From Sulfobacillus sp. (GTDB taxonomy: Bacteria > Bacillota > Sulfobacillia > Sulfobacillales > Sulfobacillaceae), in contig DAIDDL010000001.1 of NCBI GenBank assembly GCA_027309085.1, positions 124,001 through 188,000 on the forward strand: a DNA stretch of 64,000 nt. The letters run 5' to 3'. The notes beneath the pieces were generated by a model that worked only from the letters and a program-made list of their open reading frames with translations, made no database searches and was not told where the DNA came from. The position numbers and the translations under genes were made by a program. Positions 43,173 through 51,994 of this stretch are shown one piece after another. Position 1 is the stretch's first letter. Each line of letters begins with the position of its first letter.

Positions 43173-43190
43173 CAAAAAGGGCGTGTGCTC

Positions 43191-44330
43191 ATGACAAATG
43201 TGCTAATCGCGGCGATTTCTCCGGTAATGGAAATGATCCAGCGCACGGTTCAAAAAATGCCTTCGGTCCACATTGCCGCGACCACCGACAGTGTCCGCGA
43301 GGCCATTGACTATTGTTCTGTGGAGTCTTTGGACGCCATTATTGTGGACGAAACGCTTCTTATCGACAGCTGGGGACTAAGCGACCGGCTGTCCCGCGCA
43401 GCCTGCCCCATCGTCTTGGTGATTGAGTCGCCTAGTGCCGAGTCCACCCGGAGGGCCTTGGCTATGCACGCCGCGGACGTGATGACACTCGAGGCCTTGC
43501 CTACGTTGCTGCCGCCAGTGCTGAACAGTTTTGATAGCAAGGATGCGGACCAAGAAACGGTGCACCGGATCATTGGTGTCTATTCCGCTAAGGGCGGGGT
43601 CGGGAAGACAACCCTGGCGGTGAATTTGGCGTGGCTTCTGGCCAAACTCTCCGGAAAGACCACGGCGCTGGTGGACTTGGACCTCCAGTTTGGAGATGTG
43701 GGGCCAATGGTGCATGACCATCCCGACGTGACTATCCAGGAACTGGTGGAGGGGTCGCCCCAGACCATTGAAGAGGACAAGCTGGCTCGTTCCCTGATTG
43801 CTGTGGACAATCTGCCTCTGGACCTCCTCCTGGCTCCCATCCACCCGCAGTACGCGGACGCGGTGGAATCCCACCACGTCAAAGACATCGTGAAGCATCT
43901 CAAGTCTTCGCATGTCTATACCGTTTGTGACTTGTCTTCGGGACTGATCGACCAGAATCTGAGCGCTATGGATATGGCCGACGTGATTGTCATGGTGGCC
44001 ACTCCAGAGATGATTACTCTGCGGACGGTGCTGCGCTCTTTAAAAGTTTTAGGGACTCTTTATCCTCAAGAGGGGAAAATCCGCGTGGCGCTGAACCGCG
44101 CAGGCAGCGGCATATCCAAAGAAGAAATTCAAGCATTTCTCGGTCTTCCGGTAACCTACTGGATGTCGAGCGGGGGGGTGGCGCCGGTGCGCTCCGCCAA
44201 CTCCGGCAAGCCCTTGGTGGTTGTTGATCCTGGGAATGCCCTGGCAGTGTCCATTGAAAATATCGCGAAAGGGCTGCTCGCGGAATTTGAGGGAGCCAGC
44301 AGGAAAACGGCAAGAAAAGAATCGCTGTGA
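43191..44330 (+). CDS. CpaE/TadZ-like ATPase, copy 1
   Basis: A 379-residue protein. Residues 1-120 resemble a receiver fold without a clear phosphoacceptor set. Next comes a MinD/ParA-type ATPase with deviant Walker A SAKGGVGKTT near residue 131, ALVDLDLQFGDV, and DLSSGLIDQN. TadZ places the pilus machine in the cell. ATG 43191 has AAAAAGGG upstream. It is cotranscribed with cpaB and tadA; a second copy lies at 48626. Confidence 0.85.
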   Translation: MTNVLIAAISPVMEMIQRTVQKMPSVHIAATTDSVREAIDYCSVESLDAIIVDETLLIDSWGLSDRLSRAACPIVLVIESPSAESTRRALAMHAADVMTLEALPTLLPPVLNSFDSKDADQETVHRIIGVYSAKGGVGKTTLAVNLAWLLAKLSGKTTALVDLDLQFGDVGPMVHDHPDVTIQELVEGSPQTIEEDKLARSLIAVDNLPLDLLLAPIHPQYADAVESHHVKDIVKHLKSSHVYTVCDLSSGLIDQNLSAMDMADVIVMVATPEMITLRTVLRSLKVLGTLYPQEGKIRVALNRAGSGISKEEIQAFLGLPVTYWMSSGGVAPVRSANSGKPLVVVDPGNALAVSIENIAKGLLAEFEGASRKTARKESL

Positions 44331-44357
44331 TCAGGGTGGCAGGAAGGAGGAGTTAGG

Positions 44358-45710
44358 ATGTCTTTACGGACCAGGATTAATGGCATGTCCCCGGGAGCTT
44401 CTCAGGCTTTCAAGTCCATTAAGGCCCCGCAATCTGCCAAGGCGGCTAATGACTTTGACTATTTGGGCGCAAATTTTATGGCGCTTAAGAGCCGCATTCA
44501 AGATGCGCTGCTGATGCAAGTCACGTCTCCGGAAAATTTGTCGCGGGATGAACTGCGTGGCATGATCTGGAATATCGTCGAGGCGGACAAAGACATCGCG
44601 CCTTTGGAGAAAGATGCCTTGGTGCGGATTCTAGTCGACGAAATTTTGGGCTACGGCCCCATTCAGGTGCTCTTGGATGACCCGGAGATCTCGGAAATTA
44701 TGATCAATGGCGCGGGGAGCATTTACATTGAGCGGCAGGGAGCTCTGGTGAAAACCAATATTGTGTTTCGGGACGAAGGACACTTGCGGGCGACTTTGGA
44801 AAAAATGCTGTCATTCTCGGGACGGCGAGTCGATGAGGCCAGCCCCATGGTGGACGCCAGGCTGCCGGATGGATCCCGGTTGAATGCCATTTTGCGGCCA
44901 TTGGCGGTGGCAGGCGATTCTGTCACCATCCGCAAGTTCTCCAAGGACCCGTTCATCCTTTCGCAACTGGTTCAGATGGGCACTTTGTCGGCGGACATGG
45001 CAGCGTTTATCGAAGCGGCTGTGCGCGGCAAACTCAATGTGGTGGTTTCAGGCGGAACAGGATCTGGTAAAACCACCACCCTGAACGCTTTTTCTGCGTT
45101 TATTCCGGGAACGGAGCGTATTGTCACCATTGAGGATGCGGCCGAACTCCAGCTTCAGCAAGATCACAAAGTGACTTTGGAATCCCGCCCGCCCAACATT
45201 GAGGGCCGGGGCGGGGTGGCTATCCGGGATCTGGTCCGCAACGCCCTGCGCATGCGGCCTGACCGCATCATTGTCGGTGAGGTGCGGGGCGGGGAGGCGC
45301 TGGACATGCTGCAGGCTATGAATACCGGCCATGAAGGCAGTTTGACGACGGTGCACGCCAACACTCCCCGCGACTGCCTGTCACGGATTGAAACCATGGT
45401 ACTGATGGCCGGCGCTGACCTCCCCCTGCCGGCCATCCGGTCGCAAGTGGCGTCCGCCATCGACATTATCGTGCAGCAGGCACGCCTGCTTGACGGCTCC
45501 CGCCGCATTATCCGCATCACCGAAGTGGTGGGGATGGAGAGCGGCACCATCACCACGCAGGACCTGTTCCAGTTCGACCAGTCGGGTGTGGACGAAGAGG
45601 GAAAAGTGGTCGGAGTCTTCCACGGCAACGGCATCCGGCCTAAGAATTACGACCGGATCCGGTCTCAGGGTGTGGACCTGTCCCCCAGCATCTTCGGGAT
45701 GGGACTGTGA
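44358..45710 (+). CDS. tadA: TadA/CpaF secretion ATPase
   Basis: A 450-residue hexameric ATPase powering Tad pilus extension and retraction. Walker A is SGGTGSGKTTTLNAF near residue 231, the Asp box is TIEDAAELQL, the Walker B region is PDRIIVGEVRGGEALDML, and the His box is GHEGSLTTVHAN. The N-terminal domain has SEIMINGAGSIYIERQG as in CpaF. Ribosome site AAGGAGG. The length is normal. Confidence 0.94.
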   Translation: MSLRTRINGMSPGASQAFKSIKAPQSAKAANDFDYLGANFMALKSRIQDALLMQVTSPENLSRDELRGMIWNIVEADKDIAPLEKDALVRILVDEILGYGPIQVLLDDPEISEIMINGAGSIYIERQGALVKTNIVFRDEGHLRATLEKMLSFSGRRVDEASPMVDARLPDGSRLNAILRPLAVAGDSVTIRKFSKDPFILSQLVQMGTLSADMAAFIEAAVRGKLNVVVSGGTGSGKTTTLNAFSAFIPGTERIVTIEDAAELQLQQDHKVTLESRPPNIEGRGGVAIRDLVRNALRMRPDRIIVGEVRGGEALDMLQAMNTGHEGSLTTVHANTPRDCLSRIETMVLMAGADLPLPAIRSQVASAIDIIVQQARLLDGSRRIIRITEVVGMESGTITTQDLFQFDQSGVDEEGKVVGVFHGNGIRPKNYDRIRSQGVDLSPSIFGMGL

Positions 45711-45717
45711 GGCGGCT

Positions 45718-46638
45718 ATGAGGGACTTGAGCATCATACTGGCCGTCACATGGGCGCTGGCGCTATTCTTAGTGGTAGTGGGGGTCCGGGCCTCGCGCAC
45801 ATACCAGGTCACCCAAAGGCGTCTCGTGCAGATGGGCACCATGGCTCCCCGAGGCGGCAAACCGGCCCAGGCTCCCTTCAGCCTGCTGGGCAGTCTGCGC
45901 AAGACGTGGAGCCAAGGCCAGAGCGCTGCCGCGCTGAAACTCAGGATGAGCGAGTACATCTTGTTTATTGCGCTGGGATTTATAGTGCCCGGACTGATCG
46001 GGTTGGCTGTGCGGGGCGCAGTAGGGGGATTGGTGCTCGCGCTCGTCGGCGGCGGGGGGGTGCTCTTGTACTTTCGGTACATGAAATCGCGCTATTTGAG
46101 ATTGGCCGAACAGAGCCTGCCTGACTTCCTTCGCGGAATCTCTGGGGCTCTGCGGGCCGGCACTTCACTGCTGCAGGCAATGTCACTTGTGGCTAAGGAG
46201 ACTCCAGACCCACTCGGCGGGGAGATTACACGGGTGCTCAGGCGGGAGTCCTTTGGATTCAGTTTGGAGCAGACCTTGGAGGAACTGACCAACCGGATTC
46301 CTTCGAAAGATTTGTCTCTCGCGGTGATGGTCATCAATATCCAGCGGGAAATCGGCGGGTCCCTGGCAGACATTCTGGAAAACATTGTGGACACCATCGT
46401 GGCCCGGCAGCGCCTGGCCCAGGAAGTGCGCTCACTGACGGCCCAGGGCCGTTTCAGCGGGTGGATTCTGACGGCTCTGCCTTTTATTCTAGGGTTTATG
46501 ATTTGGTTTATTGATCCCAGCTATATTGACCCGCTGTTTCACACGACCATCGGCTGGATCCTTTTGGGAATGGCTGCGGTTTCCGTGGCGATTGGCGGGT
46601 TCGTCATCAACCGCCTGGTCCGCTCACCTGAGATGTAG
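45718..46638 (+). CDS. tadB: TadB inner-membrane platform protein
   Basis: A 306-residue T2SSF-type platform protein. There is an N-terminal helix, helices around residues 80-115, a cytoplasmic F-domain with LPDFLRGISGALRAGTSLLQAM and EIGGSLADILENIVDTI, and two C-terminal helices. It pairs with TadC to form the pilus base. ATG 45718 is 7 bp after the tadA stop. Confidence 0.9.
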   Translation: MRDLSIILAVTWALALFLVVVGVRASRTYQVTQRRLVQMGTMAPRGGKPAQAPFSLLGSLRKTWSQGQSAAALKLRMSEYILFIALGFIVPGLIGLAVRGAVGGLVLALVGGGGVLLYFRYMKSRYLRLAEQSLPDFLRGISGALRAGTSLLQAMSLVAKETPDPLGGEITRVLRRESFGFSLEQTLEELTNRIPSKDLSLAVMVINIQREIGGSLADILENIVDTIVARQRLAQEVRSLTAQGRFSGWILTALPFILGFMIWFIDPSYIDPLFHTTIGWILLGMAAVSVAIGGFVINRLVRSPEM

Positions 46639-46649
46639 GGAGGTTTTGT

Positions 46650-47582
46650 ATGCTGCGCTGGATGGATGTCACAATTGCCGCCCTGTTGGCTCTAGCGGTC
46701 ATTCTATTCGCGGCCTGGGTCAAGGATTTGAAAGTGTTCAGCCGGCAAAGGGCGCTGGGCGACCGGCTCTCGCCCTACCAACTGCGGCGGGCTGACCCTG
46801 CGGACGAACTGGAGATGCCGTTTTCCCAGCGGGTTATCGTCCCGGGTCTGCAAAAGATCTTTGATGCCCTCTCGCGCGCCTTGACCCCTGCCAAAGTGCG
46901 GGCGGAACTGGGCCGCCGCCTGAGGCAGGCGGGCAGCACGATGGGTCCCGATGCTTTTGTGCTGTACCGCCTGGCCATTTCCGTGCTGCTTTTAGCTCTG
47001 GGAGTGGTGGTGGGGCTGATCGAGACGTCTTTGCCGGGATGGCAGCGGGTGGCGATTCCTTTGGGGATGGGAGCTATCGGCTACATCTTTATGGGGGTGC
47101 GGGTCAATACCCAGGCCCAAATCCGTCTGAGACAGCTCGAACGCTCACTCCCCGAAGTGTTTGACCTGCTGAGTGTCAGCGTGGAGGCAGGGCTGGCTTT
47201 TGATGGGGCCTTGAGGAAACTGGTGACAAATCTGGGACCGGGCCCGGCCAAGGATGAATTTACCCGAGTCCTGTCGGACATGCAGCTGGGAATGACCCGG
47301 TCAGAAGCGCTGACGGCCCTGGCCGAGCGCACTAAATCCCGGGAACTTAAGAGGTTTGCGGGGCTGGTGGCGCAGTCCGACCGGACCGGGGCGGGAATCG
47401 CCAATGCCCTTAAAGTACAGGCCCACGACATCAAAGCGGCGAGGGCCGCTCAGGCCCGGGAAAAAGCGGCCCTGATCCCAGTCAAAATCATCTTCCCCAT
47501 GGTGCTGTTTATTTTTCCGGCTATTTTCATTGTCATTCTCGGGCCTGCGTTTCTGTCCCTGATTCGCGTGTTCCATGGCTGA
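46650..47582 (+). CDS. tadC: TadC inner-membrane platform protein
   Basis: A 310-residue T2SSF protein paired with TadB. It has an N-terminal helix, a helix pair around residues 110-150, LPEVFDLLSVSVEAGLAFDGAL, then RTGAGIANALKVQAHDIKAARAAQAREKAALIPVKIIFP and a final helix. Its last 8 bases overlap the DUF192 gene. Confidence 0.9.
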   Translation: MLRWMDVTIAALLALAVILFAAWVKDLKVFSRQRALGDRLSPYQLRRADPADELEMPFSQRVIVPGLQKIFDALSRALTPAKVRAELGRRLRQAGSTMGPDAFVLYRLAISVLLLALGVVVGLIETSLPGWQRVAIPLGMGAIGYIFMGVRVNTQAQIRLRQLERSLPEVFDLLSVSVEAGLAFDGALRKLVTNLGPGPAKDEFTRVLSDMQLGMTRSEALTALAERTKSRELKRFAGLVAQSDRTGAGIANALKVQAHDIKAARAAQAREKAALIPVKIIFPMVLFIFPAIFIVILGPAFLSLIRVFHG

Positions 47583-47937
47583 CGAGCTCGTGCCGGAGGG
47601 ATTCGTGGCCGTGAGAAATATGCGGACTCTGCAGCTGCTAGGGGATCATATTCAGGTGGCCGATTCGTTTTGGCTGCGGTTTCGGGGGCTGATGGGAACT
47701 GCAAGCTTGGATCCCGGAGAGGGAATGCTCTTCCCCCGAACCAATTCCATCCACATGTTTTTTATGCGCTACCCCCTGACGATTGTCTACCTGTCGAAAG
47801 ACATGAAGGTGCTGCGCAGCGTGGTGGTGAAGCCATGGCGCATCGGGCCGATCGTGTTAAAAGCCCAGTGGGTGCTGGAACTGCCAGACATTTCTCAAGC
47901 GGACATTCAAACAGGCGATACGGTGAGCATTGAATAG
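47575..47937 (+). CDS. DUF192 protein
   Basis: A 120-residue protein of the DUF192 family: VADSFWLRFRGLMGTASLDPGEGMLFP, HMFFMRYPLTIVYL and the closing VLELP. There is no signal peptide, unlike many members. The function of the family is unknown. It starts inside tadC by 8 bp, so it is translationally coupled to the pilus operon, which suggests a role in pilus biogenesis or in a process shared with it. Confidence 0.85.
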   Translation: MADELVPEGFVAVRNMRTLQLLGDHIQVADSFWLRFRGLMGTASLDPGEGMLFPRTNSIHMFFMRYPLTIVYLSKDMKVLRSVVVKPWRIGPIVLKAQWVLELPDISQADIQTGDTVSIE

Positions 47938-47950
47938 CCAGTGACGGTAC

Positions 47951-48442
47951 TCAACTGGAGCAGGCCGCATTGGTTCCCGCCTCAAAACACCCATTGGGGG
48001 TCTGAGAGCCGTTATCTACCTCCACCACCATGGTGTACTGCTGGGTAATGGGCACTTGCTGGCCAAATCCTGGAATACCGATGAGCAAAGGATAGTGTGC
48101 TGCTACAGATACAGTTACCGTCTGGGGCAGATTTGAGGTAGTTGTTGATGTGGTGGATGAAGACGGACCAGTAACGGTCCACTTGACTGGCGTATCCACA
48201 GGAAAAATGTTGTCTTGGTTCACTTGATTGATTATGGCTTGCTTCGGACTATCTCCCAAAGACGCCTCACGCACCCCGATGCGGGCTGCCTGCTGGATGG
48301 TGATAAAGCCGTTGAAGAGCAATCCCATTTGAATGATGCCTAGGAGAAATAGCAAGAGGAGCGGGACGACGAGGGCGAACTCGACAAGAGCCTGGCCTTT
48401 GCGGTCCTGCCAGCGGGACCGGTTCACTAGGGATATGCGCAT
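47951..48442 (-). CDS. TadE-like minor pilin
   Basis: A 163-residue protein whose N terminus repeats the pilin signature: a basic leader (RSRWQDRKG), then GQALVEFALVVPLLLLFLLG with Glu five residues after the Gly, matching the Flp pilin. A Ser/Thr-rich extracellular domain follows (SSSTTSTTTS), ending with a cysteine pair. It is probably processed by the same peptidase. The minus-strand gene converges on the DUF192 gene with a 13-bp gap. Confidence 0.82.
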   Translation of the reverse strand: MRISLVNRSRWQDRKGQALVEFALVVPLLLLFLLGIIQMGLLFNGFITIQQAARIGVREASLGDSPKQAIINQVNQDNIFPVDTPVKWTVTGPSSSTTSTTTSNLPQTVTVSVAAHYPLLIGIPGFGQQVPITQQYTMVVEVDNGSQTPNGCFEAGTNAACSS

Positions 48443-48546
48443 CAAGTTCAGACTCCTTGTCCGATGATTTTTATATAGAAATAGCGGTTGATGTAATATG
48501 ATTATCTTCAGTGTAAGGACAAAGTGGGGAACTGTAAATAATTTCC

Positions 48547-48575
48547 TTGGAAAAGTTCGCAGGGACCAATATTGT
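48547..48575 (+). promoter_or_regulatory. Promoter of the second CpaE/TadZ gene
   Basis: TTGGAA (48547-48552), 17 bases, TATTGT (48570-48575), about 50 bp before the start codon. Confidence 0.5.
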
Positions 48576-48625
48576 GTATCATGCAGGGGAATGGACCAGT
48601 TTAGTGTCGAATCAGGAGGATGTTT

Positions 48626-49810
48626 ATGTTCACGGTGTATGTTGCGTGCCACGACGAATTGCGAACAGAATTAACGGTTGCCGTGAAAAACATACCGGGG
48701 GTGATTCTGAACGGGAGTTCGGCTGACTTGCGCGAGTCTCTCGAGGAATGCGCTGCAGAAGCGCCCGGAGTCTTCCTGGTTGACGATACGTTGCTGGCCC
48801 AAAATGTTGGCCTCTTCGAAAAGCTGGCGGCGGTGCCGTATCCGGTTGTGGTGCTGGCCCCCTCGGCCGATGCTGCGGCGGCCCGCCGGGCCCTGGCCAT
48901 CCGGGCCAAGGATTTCATCAGTCTGGACAGCTGGGCCGAGGACTTGGGGCCCATCCTGTCCCGGGTCGCTGTCCCCATTCAGGGCGAGACGCGGCAGGAC
49001 GGGCGGGTTCTCGTGGTATTTTCCTCCAAGGGCGGGGTGGGCAAGACTACCCTGAGTGTGAATCTGGCTATCGCGCTGGCAAAGACGAGCCGCCAGCCGG
49101 TGGTGATTATGGATCTGGACATCCAGTTTGGGGACGTAGCCCCGATGGTGGGGGACGCGCCTTTGGTGACACTGTTTGATTTGGTGAAAGGAACGGCGGC
49201 CGTTGACTCCGACATGCTCAAGCGGGCTGTAAAGCGGGTGGCGAACAACGTGTATATTCTGGCCGCTCCTGACAATCCTGAGGAAGCTGATGATGTGCAT
49301 GCGGACCAGGTGGTGCAGATCCTGCACCTGCTCCGCGAGACCTATGCCTACGTAATCGTGGATACAGCGCCGGGCTACACCGATATCAACGTGGCAGCTT
49401 TTGATTTTGCCGATACCATTTTGACCGTGTGCACCCCGGATGTGGTTACCCTCAGAACAATCGGGCAGGCTCTGCAAGTATTTTATGACGGATTCCACTA
49501 CCCGAAAGACAAAGTGCGCATTGTGCTGAACCGTAGCGGGTCGAAAACCGGTGTCGAGACGACAGACATTGCGCAAGTGCTGCAAACCCCCATTGCCTTT
49601 CAATTGCCGAGTGACGGCGCCTTTCCTGTGCGCGCTGCCAATGAAGGGCACCCGCTTCTGCTGCAGTTTCCGGATTCATCCCTGTCCCGGACCATTCAGA
49701 GCATGGCCAATGATCTGGTTCGCGAGACAGAAGGCCGCATCCGGAAAAATCCGGCTAAGCGCACCCTGCTGGCCCGCCTCACAGGAAGAAAACCCAAAGA
49801 AGTGCAGTAG
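48626..49810 (+). CDS. CpaE/TadZ-like ATPase, copy 2
   Basis: A 394-residue paralogue of the gene at 43191 with the same layout: a receiver-like N-terminal domain of about 120 residues, then Walker A SSKGGVGKTT near residue 134, MDLDIQFGDVAPM and DTAPGYTDIN. It has its own promoter outside the main operon. ATG 48626 has AGGAGGA 5 bases upstream; ATG 48620 overlaps that site. It may position a second pilus pole or regulate the first copy. Confidence 0.85.
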   Translation: MFTVYVACHDELRTELTVAVKNIPGVILNGSSADLRESLEECAAEAPGVFLVDDTLLAQNVGLFEKLAAVPYPVVVLAPSADAAAARRALAIRAKDFISLDSWAEDLGPILSRVAVPIQGETRQDGRVLVVFSSKGGVGKTTLSVNLAIALAKTSRQPVVIMDLDIQFGDVAPMVGDAPLVTLFDLVKGTAAVDSDMLKRAVKRVANNVYILAAPDNPEEADDVHADQVVQILHLLRETYAYVIVDTAPGYTDINVAAFDFADTILTVCTPDVVTLRTIGQALQVFYDGFHYPKDKVRIVLNRSGSKTGVETTDIAQVLQTPIAFQLPSDGAFPVRAANEGHPLLLQFPDSSLSRTIQSMANDLVRETEGRIRKNPAKRTLLARLTGRKPKEVQ

Positions 49811-49910: not shown

Positions 49911-51623
49911 ATGAGTGCAATCCCGCGGCACTGGCTGTGGGCTGTCCCGGCGCTGACAATGGCAGCCGGGTTGTTTTCTGTGGCGGGCTTGCGCCATACC
50001 CAAGCTGCAGCCAGCTCGCAGGCGGGGCCTGCAGCGTTCAGCAAATACGGCATGGGGCGGGACAACAATCCTGTGTTTGAGGACCGCGCGGTGAGTCGTT
50101 GGGACCGGAACTGGACCTACACAGCGCAAGAGCCTTTGCAGCAGGCGTCGGTGGCGCAGGGGGCCGTGTATGTTTCGGGGGATGGCGGCCGTCTCAATGA
50201 TCCCCATAACGATGAGGTCTACGCGTTGGGAGCTGGGACCGGGAAAGTTTTGTGGACCAGGCATTTGGACAATATGTCCATGACCACGCCTGTGGTGGCG
50301 CATGGCCTGGTGTTTGTGGGCACGGGCAGCCAGCAGTTTTCGGCCCGGCAGCAGGCTAAGGTCAACCGGCTCCAGAGCCGGTCTGTCGTCCGGGGCACAG
50401 GACCGAGTGCGATTTATGCCTTAGGCGCCCATACAGGGGCGGTGCGCTGGAAGTTTCCCACCCGCGGAGAGGACATGCCGACATTTGTCGCGGACCGGTC
50501 CACGATCTACGCGGCCAACGGCCAGGGCCGCATTTATGCTCTGGCCGCGCCGACCGGCGCCGTTCAGTGGAGTCTCAAAATCGGGTCGTATGTCAGCATG
50601 GCATCCCCGGAGCTGGTGAGGGGAATCCTCTATGTTTCCGGAGCCCACCCGTACCGGCTTTACGCGGTGGATGTCCACACGCACCGCCTGGTATGGCAGA
50701 GGCCTGTGCCCAGAGTGTTCGGCGGCTCCGACGACAGTTCCCCGGCCTTCGCCGGCGGGCTGATTTATCTGGAGGGGACAACGGGCACATGGCAGCACCC
50801 GGTATCGGAATTGCTCGCATTTCGGACGTCAGGAACTCTGGCGTGGGAAACACGGCTCGGTGCCGGGACCCTGCCCAAGGACATTGAGGTATCAGCCCCT
50901 ATGGAGCACCGCGGCACCGTGTATGTGGGCTCTCCGGTATCGGACGCTGAATACGCCGTCCGAGCACGGACAGGGCGGGTCGAGTGGCGTTTCAAGGCAT
51001 ACGGTCCCATTTCTGAATCGGCAGCCGCCGTCAGGGGCAGAGTGTACGTCGGTGACGGGAAAGGCATGCTCTATGCGCTGAGCGCCCACTCTGGCCGGGA
51101 GATCTGGTCGCGGTACCTGTCCGGGGCCTTTGCCGCCGACTATCCCGTGGTCGTGGGGCAGACTCTCTACCAGCCTGATGAAAATGGCCAGATGTTTGCG
51201 TTGCCCATGAGCGAGATGACAGGGCAGGCCCTGCGCCAGCCCCCTGACCTCCCCATGCCTTCCGGCACTTTGGGGCAGGATATTAAAAAAGGCGAGAGCG
51301 TCTTCATGGAAGGCATGGGCCCGCAAGGGCTGTCCTGCGCCAGCTGCCATGCGGGCGGCGGCTCCTTGAGCACTTACCGGCAGGGACAGCTGATCCCCAG
51401 CCTTCTGGGGGCCGCCTCAGCCTTTCCCATGGTCCGGCAGGGCAAGATCCGGACTCTGGACGGGCAGATTAGGAGCTGCCTCCATGCTATGAGGGGGCCG
51501 CAGTTGGCCGGGGACAGTGCAAAAATGCAAGAACTTAATGTCTACCTGCACTGGCTGTCAAGCGGGTGGCCGGATCACCTCTCGACCCAGACTGGCCACA
51601 GCAATTCGAAAGGAGGCTGCTGA
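49911..51623 (+). CDS. Beta-propeller (PQQ-like) protein fused to cytochrome c domain
   Basis: A 570-residue exported redox protein: signal peptide (about residues 8-32), then PQQ-type propeller repeats (VYALGAGTGKVLW, IYALGAHTGAVRW, IYALAAPTGAVQW, LYALSAHSGREIW) to about residue 445. The C-terminal domain has one haem site, CASCH (near residue 478), and a later Cys in IRSCLHAMRGPQL before ELNVYLHWLSSGW. That pattern recalls the TsdA/SoxA cytochrome group. The propeller resembles tetrathionate-hydrolase-like proteins (GEDMPT, GSYVSMASP, GGSDDSSPA). Substrate unknown. It overlaps the next cytochrome gene by one base. Confidence 0.75.
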   Translation: MSAIPRHWLWAVPALTMAAGLFSVAGLRHTQAAASSQAGPAAFSKYGMGRDNNPVFEDRAVSRWDRNWTYTAQEPLQQASVAQGAVYVSGDGGRLNDPHNDEVYALGAGTGKVLWTRHLDNMSMTTPVVAHGLVFVGTGSQQFSARQQAKVNRLQSRSVVRGTGPSAIYALGAHTGAVRWKFPTRGEDMPTFVADRSTIYAANGQGRIYALAAPTGAVQWSLKIGSYVSMASPELVRGILYVSGAHPYRLYAVDVHTHRLVWQRPVPRVFGGSDDSSPAFAGGLIYLEGTTGTWQHPVSELLAFRTSGTLAWETRLGAGTLPKDIEVSAPMEHRGTVYVGSPVSDAEYAVRARTGRVEWRFKAYGPISESAAAVRGRVYVGDGKGMLYALSAHSGREIWSRYLSGAFAADYPVVVGQTLYQPDENGQMFALPMSEMTGQALRQPPDLPMPSGTLGQDIKKGESVFMEGMGPQGLSCASCHAGGGSLSTYRQGQLIPSLLGAASAFPMVRQGKIRTLDGQIRSCLHAMRGPQLAGDSAKMQELNVYLHWLSSGWPDHLSTQTGHSNSKGGC

Positions 51624-51994
51624 TGGCGCTCGGGAAACGTTTGCGGGCTGCCGCGCTGGGCCTGGCAGTGATAGGGTGCGCAGCATACGGCATATACCAT
51701 GACGCCCACGTGCAGGCGGTGGCGAAGACTTCTGCCCGGCAGGCATCAGACGGGCAGGAACTGTTTGCCGCAATGTGCCAGACCTGTCATGGCCGGGGCG
51801 GGGACGGGTCTGGCGGGGCGCCTGTGCTGAACAGCGGGGCCACGGTGCAAAAGTATCAGGATACCGCGGCCCTGGCCCATTTTATCCGGACCCGCATGCC
51901 TGCCAGCGACCCCGGTGTCCTGACCCGTCCGGAAGCATGGGATCTCGCCCTCTTCATTAATAAACTGAACCATCGTCTTCCAGGAAATCCCTAA
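51623..51994 (+). CDS. Monohaem cytochrome c
   Basis: A 123-residue exported class I cytochrome c. An N-terminal signal or anchor (about residues 9-25) is followed by the haem site CQTCHGRGGDG near residue 52, with a likely Met axial ligand in IRTRMPASDPG. Its start codon overlaps the stop of the propeller-cytochrome gene, and AAAGGAGG precedes it, so it is probably the electron acceptor for that protein. Confidence 0.88.
   Translation: MALGKRLRAAALGLAVIGCAAYGIYHDAHVQAVAKTSARQASDGQELFAAMCQTCHGRGGDGSGGAPVLNSGATVQKYQDTAALAHFIRTRMPASDPGVLTRPEAWDLALFINKLNHRLPGNP

Follow-up and report, generated by a model that had tools for sequence, protein, structure and literature searches.

We identify a secreted fusion protein of Sulfobacillus relatives (gene A) in which a propeller resembling tetrathionate hydrolase (TTH), a one-haem domain of the SoxA/TsdA type and a flexible tail with a Gly-Gly-Cys end follow one another in a single chain, and which is encoded beside a class I cytochrome c (gene B). 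We propose, with confidence that falls a little short of even, that A-B is an extracytoplasmic sulfur-oxyanion oxidase in which the tail Cys serves as a built-in covalent sulfur carrier between the haem and the propeller. A tethered carrier is the simplest reading that accounts for all four conserved elements, namely the haem site, the partner cytochrome, the Cys tip and the acid site. The pair lies in a stretch of 64,000 nucleotides from a Sulfobacillus sp. genome (contig DAIDDL010000001.1; hereafter the window), and its features are collected in Table 1. The fusion is a new composite of known parts, and we found no description of the fusion, the A-B pair or the Cys tail in the open-licence PMC literature.

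Anatomy and distribution of the gene pair

An earlier note on this DNA had described a signal peptide, a propeller and a one-haem domain in the first protein, and a second gene that overlaps it by one base and supplies haem c. Pfam matches and the sequence bear this out: all three parts are present, genes A and B share exactly one base (TGATG), and each of the two proteins carries one CxxCH motif. The parts named there all stand; what that account of the anatomy overlooked is the C-terminal Gly-Gly-Cys tail. Directly upstream of the pair, the window holds a Tad-pilus-like cluster on the minus strand (43185-49810), with two CpaE-like ATPases, a CpaF-like ATPase, and TadB/TadC-like and TadE-like proteins.

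Table 1. Features of genes A and B, in positions of the window
Feature	Position	Strand	Basis or detail
Gene A, secreted TTH-like propeller/SoxA-TsdA-type haem/GGC-tail fusion, 570 aa	49911..51623	+	ATG 49911, TGA 51621-51623
Signal-peptide-like segment of A, residues ~1-33	49911..50009	+	Hydrophobic core, TQA-A; predicted helix 8-21
Propeller of A, residues 65-436	50103..51218	+	AF2 model; top PDB match tetrathionate hydrolase
Asp275 codon of A, column of catalytic Asp325 of A. ferrooxidans TTH	50733..50735	+	Alignment
SoxA/TsdA-type one-haem domain of A, residues ~454-557	51270..51581	+	Pfam, profile and fold matches
Haem c motif CASCH of A (C476-H480)	51336..51350	+	Sequence
Cys523 of A, aligned with Cys haem ligand of TsdA/SoxA	51477..51479	+	Alignment; PMC4423706
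Variable flexible tail of A, residues 553-570, Gly-Gly-Cys end, candidate sulfur carrier arm	51567..51620	+	Tip kept in 15/15 intact fusions
Cys570, last residue of A	51618..51620	+	Sequence
Likely ribosome-binding site of gene B, AAAGGAGG, sharing bases with the Gly-Gly codons of A's tail	51609..51616	+	Sequence
Gene B, class I cytochrome c, 123 aa, N-terminal membrane-anchor-like helix	51623..51994	+	ATG 51623
Haem motif CQTCH of gene B	51776-51790	+	Sequence
Met92 of gene B	51896-51898	+	Invariant Met (MPA) in alignment

We searched for the fusion's haem domain in 154 genomes of its own class and in 398 genomes sampled from the phylum. The A-B pair occurs in 16 genomes of a single order of Sulfobacillus relatives, 15 of them in one family (f1) and one in another (f2), as 15 intact full-length fusions and one broken copy, and the other intact fusions are 49-58% identical to that of the window. 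Gene B adjoins A in every carrier (16/16). Because there are 15 intact members and one broken copy, each beside B, we regard the fusion as real and not a product of chance. The surroundings of A-B are largely syntenic among the f1 carriers; in G041, which belongs to another family than f1, the two genes are still together in an unrelated gene context. Sulfobacillus benefaciens AMDSBA4 is among the carriers. Among the matches of a plasmid search, none covered 80% of A. The broken copy lies in a single-contig genome (G004; L041 6309-7996), where an in-frame stop splits the fusion gene and gene B is intact; the split gene is either a pseudogene or a sequencing error.

Propeller and tetrathionate hydrolase

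The propeller matches Pfam PQQ_2 (E 4e-34), and its best sequence match among solved proteins is the TTH of Acidithiobacillus ferrooxidans (Af-Tth; phmmer E 1.4e-36). An AF2 model built from four sequences, which is good for the propeller and poor, with low confidence, for the haem domain and tail, has eight blades, as in Af-Tth (6l8a, 7cqy), and matches TTH in VIA with Z 46.1 (rmsd 1.9, 357 residues aligned; next entry Z 38.4) and in Foldseek with E 6e-30. The resemblance to TTH that had been read from the sequence is upheld, TTH being the clear best relative. The catalytic Asp, for which the earlier note had looked to structure prediction, is kept as well: in all 15 fusions D275 stands in the column of Asp325, the residue that acts as acid in TTH (PMC10859504) and is replaced by Asn in 7cqy, the structure of the D325N variant. 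R161 and E187 of A are likewise common to Af-Tth. The Asp275 column is kept in more distant propeller paralogues too; conservation across this wider family means that it does not single out the function of the fusion.

The window's own genome holds a separate propeller gene (G000:C4:1425-2546; L003, L111). In a propeller tree that includes one characterised TTH only and has some long branches, Af-TTH joins this paralogue with support of 100/99, and the fusion propellers form a separate clade. The paralogue is 40% identical to Af-TTH, against 28-32% for the fusion propellers, and is a better candidate than the fusion for the genome's real TTH. Since the Asp is non-specific and Af-TTH groups with the paralogue, with the fusions in another clade, we place the fusion in the TTH superfamily and take it as probably not the TTH of its genome. 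Thus the fusion shares with Af-Tth its fold, top match and Asp325 column, but differs from it in identity and clade and in adding a haem domain and a Cys tail. According to the part of Justice et al. (2014; PMC4378227) that treats these proteins, Sulfobacillus genomes encode TTH homologues of uncharacterised families; AMDSBA4 is among the genomes of that survey, whereas the cytochrome domain, partner gene and Cys tail are absent from that part of its account. Two cytochrome-less propeller paralogues (L042 7028-8356 and L043 982-2349) are nested within the fusion clade and apparently lost the haem domain and Cys tail together.

Haem domain and partner cytochrome

The haem domain of A matches Pfam SoxA-TsdA_cyt-c (PF21342) with 33.3 bits against a gathering score of 27, and a profile of 12 fusion haem domains finds TsdA at E 1.4e-12 and SoxA at E 4e-8. 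When the domain is modelled in isolation, at low confidence, its top 13 fold matches are TsdA, TsdBA and SoxAX. With the SoxA model NCBIfam TIGR04484, A scores 58.6 bits, under the curated cut-off of 110. The conserved Cys that the earlier note had placed downstream of the haem, before YLHWLSS, is found together with that segment in all relatives, as YL[HR]WL[SA]S, and in the alignment C523 takes the place of the Cys that ligates the haem in TsdA and SoxA. The domain has ligand positions for both His and Cys. The cytochrome is therefore related to TsdA/SoxA as had been supposed, and is not of some unrelated kind.

An Arg four residues ahead of the ligand Cys is reported as invariant in TsdA and SoxA and as necessary in TsdA (Grabarczyk et al., PMC4423706). 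At this position (Arg119, four residues upstream of C523) the fusions carry Gln in 14 cases, including Gln519 of the window's protein, and Glu in the remaining one of 15; the equivalents of TsdA Arg109 and Ser127 are not conserved. Arg is kept in four TsdAs, true TsdAs of related genomes included, and in Paracoccus versutus SoxA. Its absence from the fusions weakens the reading as a plain thiosulfate dehydrogenase, and on this feature the haem domain falls outside both TsdA and SoxA; TsdA/SoxA-like chemistry with other anion-binding groups is possible.

Gene B, with CxxCH and an invariant Met, encodes a His/Met cytochrome c. The B alignment has no conserved Cys outside CxxCH, and a conserved A-B disulfide was rejected on this ground. 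The fusion resembles TsdA (4wq7) and TsdBA (5lo9) in the fold and family of the catalytic domain, the position of the Cys haem ligand and a second haem provided by a class I cytochrome c, but it has this haem on a separate polypeptide, replaces Arg119 by Gln or Glu, and adds the propeller and tail.

C-terminal cysteine tail

The intact fusions end in GGC (14/15) or AGC (1/15), optionally followed by an extra K, N or Q. In all 15 the terminal Cys lies 17-20 residues from the last helix, at the end of a poorly conserved linker in which 64% of residues are small or polar (G/S/T/P/A/N/Q). Only four Cys of A are conserved: C476 and C479, which attach the haem, C523 at the ligand position, and C570. 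The terminal Cys is absent from 10/10 stand-alone one-haem relatives, from 3/3 TsdAs and from the cytochrome-less propeller paralogues, including the two nested within the fusion clade. Its setting recalls SoxY, which has its carrier Cys in a C-terminal Gly-Gly-Cys: P. versutus SoxY, used as control, ends IGGCGG (thus GGCGG, compared with (G/A)GC in the fusions).

In most loci G-rich tail codons lie a few bases upstream of the start of B, as they would if the terminal GGC were a mere coding by-product of B's ribosome-binding site without a role in the protein. We consider this extremely improbable. The tail Cys is kept for the protein's sake, because its codon varies between TGC and TGT, several loci have an extra codon between it and the start of B, and among 124 other translationally coupled ORFs of the collected DNA there is none with a Cys in the last two residues. 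The tail glycines may serve both the protein and B's ribosome-binding site. We rejected GGC as an artefact of that site, which accounts for the glycines at most.

Comparison with the Sox pathway

SoxAX oxidatively conjugates thiosulfate to the Cys of SoxY, from which SoxB then hydrolyses off sulfate, and the TsdA reaction passes through a Cys S-thiosulfonate (PMC4423706, PMC5336275). SoxY was found in none of the 61 relatives searched, with PF13501 matching in the P. versutus control, and neither PF13501 nor TIGR04488 has a match anywhere in the window's genome. True SoxB was likewise found in none of the 61 relatives, and the SoxB model finds its target in P. versutus. SoxB-like matches at ~290 bits, against a cut-off of 550, occur in five relatives, all of them fusion carriers; SoxB-like metallophosphatase loci are L106 8073-9608, L107 6985-8424, L108 7386-8825 and L109 6926-8371. 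Because these matches have no signal-like start and no recognised sox neighbours, we rejected them as Sox proteins and read them as 5'-nucleotidase-type. The fusion resembles SoxXA/SoxYZ in pairing a SoxA-family haem domain with a separate one-haem partner and in its terminal Gly-Gly-Cys, but its arm is in cis, there is no SoxY domain and no SoxB, and the SoxA Arg is missing.

Proposed mechanism and its alternatives

We propose that the tail Cys would take up a sulfur oxyanion to form Cys-S-thiosulfonate. This would happen either by oxidation, with thiosulfate at the Cys-ligated haem, in the way that SoxY is loaded by SoxAX, or by exchange of its thiol with tetrathionate. Electrons would pass from the haem of A to that of gene B and on to the respiratory chain. 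The arm would then swing over to the propeller, and in its pocket acid hydrolysis driven by the Asp would release sulfate, a SoxB-like job at a TTH-like site; in TTH the acid site splits sulfonate from polythionate. The persulfide left on the arm would enter the next round. A-B would in this way resemble SoxA, SoxX, SoxY and a hydrolase in two polypeptides, in hosts without SoxY or true SoxB. The anatomy, conservation and linkage of the pair are observed, and from them we infer the substrate, covalent loading, order of steps and electron route. A fuller claim goes further: one polypeptide would combine a haem site of the SoxA family, a Cys carrier arm in cis and an acid hydrolase in the propeller, as an analogue of the Sox cycle that arose without SoxYZ or SoxB. 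Acidophilic Gram-positives would thereby have a covalently tethered route by which thiosulfate or tetrathionate is oxidised to sulfate and electrons go directly to a cytochrome. We advance this as possible, if on the doubtful side.

The main weakness of the carrier reading is the missing Arg. A thiol is also a poor nucleophile at strongly acid external pH, which counts against a carrier. The arm would have to reach both the haem and the propeller pocket, and the AF2 model is of low confidence for the haem domain and tail. Sulfobacillus-type acidophiles are used in bioleaching and are common in mine drainage; if the carrier reading is true, A-B would fill a gap in their oxidation of thiosulfate and tetrathionate and would place several steps of sulfur oxidation in one secreted molecule. 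Carrier steps of the Sox pathway have so far been hard to study, and a single chain that unites the haem with a carrier Cys and a hydrolase would open that chemistry.

A TTH-like enzyme with an electron outlet is a rather unlikely alternative that nonetheless deserves weight. Here the propeller would hydrolyse polythionates, the haem domain and B would take electrons from the reduced sulfur product, and the tail Cys would be secondary, serving product handling or redox protection. TTH is the best match in sequence and fold, the Asp is kept, and the cytochrome-less members nested in the fusion clade suggest that the propeller can act alone. However, the genome holds a nearer TTH relative, with the fusion propellers in another clade at lower identity; the TTH reaction requires no electron acceptor, and the strict C-terminal Cys is left unexplained. 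The same Cys is unaccounted for if A-B is a split thiosulfate dehydrogenase or tetrathionate reductase, in which the haem domain of A and B would be the two TsdA haems and the propeller a scaffold or substrate funnel. Although the haem domain and B follow each other as in TsdA, where the catalytic haem precedes a class I cytochrome c, and the profile and the top fold matches fit, the equivalents of Arg119, Arg109 and Ser127 are missing and the true TsdAs of related genomes do have the Arg, so that we judge this unlikely.

A different role for the C-terminal Cys, in place of a sulfur carrier, seems to us decidedly unlikely: that it is a structural or switchable ligand, whether by swapping as haem ligand, in a metal site or through a disulfide between proteins. 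In TsdA the Cys ligand has been proposed to leave the haem during the reaction (PMC9562282), and the tail begins where the haem domain ends; yet a loose, variable linker with a Gly-Gly-Cys end is more what one expects of a mobile arm than of a fixed ligand, and B has no conserved partner Cys. The alcohol or sugar dehydrogenase that the earlier note had offered as an alternative finds no support. Pfam PQQ repeats and the combination of propeller and cytochrome c do recall a quinohaemoprotein alcohol dehydrogenase (type II), but the alcohol dehydrogenase model gives 53 bits against a cut-off of 480, the vicinal Cys pair is absent, the propeller of the window's protein has no Cys at all, and the best structural match is the cofactor-free TTH. 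We looked for an ordinary alcohol or glucose dehydrogenase as best match, and TTH came out best. A PQQ dehydrogenase was rejected on family scores and the missing Cys pair, and its probability is minimal. PqqC was found above cut-off in none of nine host genomes, in a search that had no positive control and proves little.

Small secreted SoxA-like proteins

One-haem SoxA-like proteins that are small and secreted are encoded at nine further loci (L048, L051, L053, L055, L058, L059, L065, L072 and L075). Where surroundings were examined, no sulfur genes were recognised beside stand-alone SoxA-like genes, and this family has a D-Ala-D-Ala-ligase-like neighbour. Its members end in LSRFHER or LSHFHER, with Gln in place of the invariant Arg where aligned.
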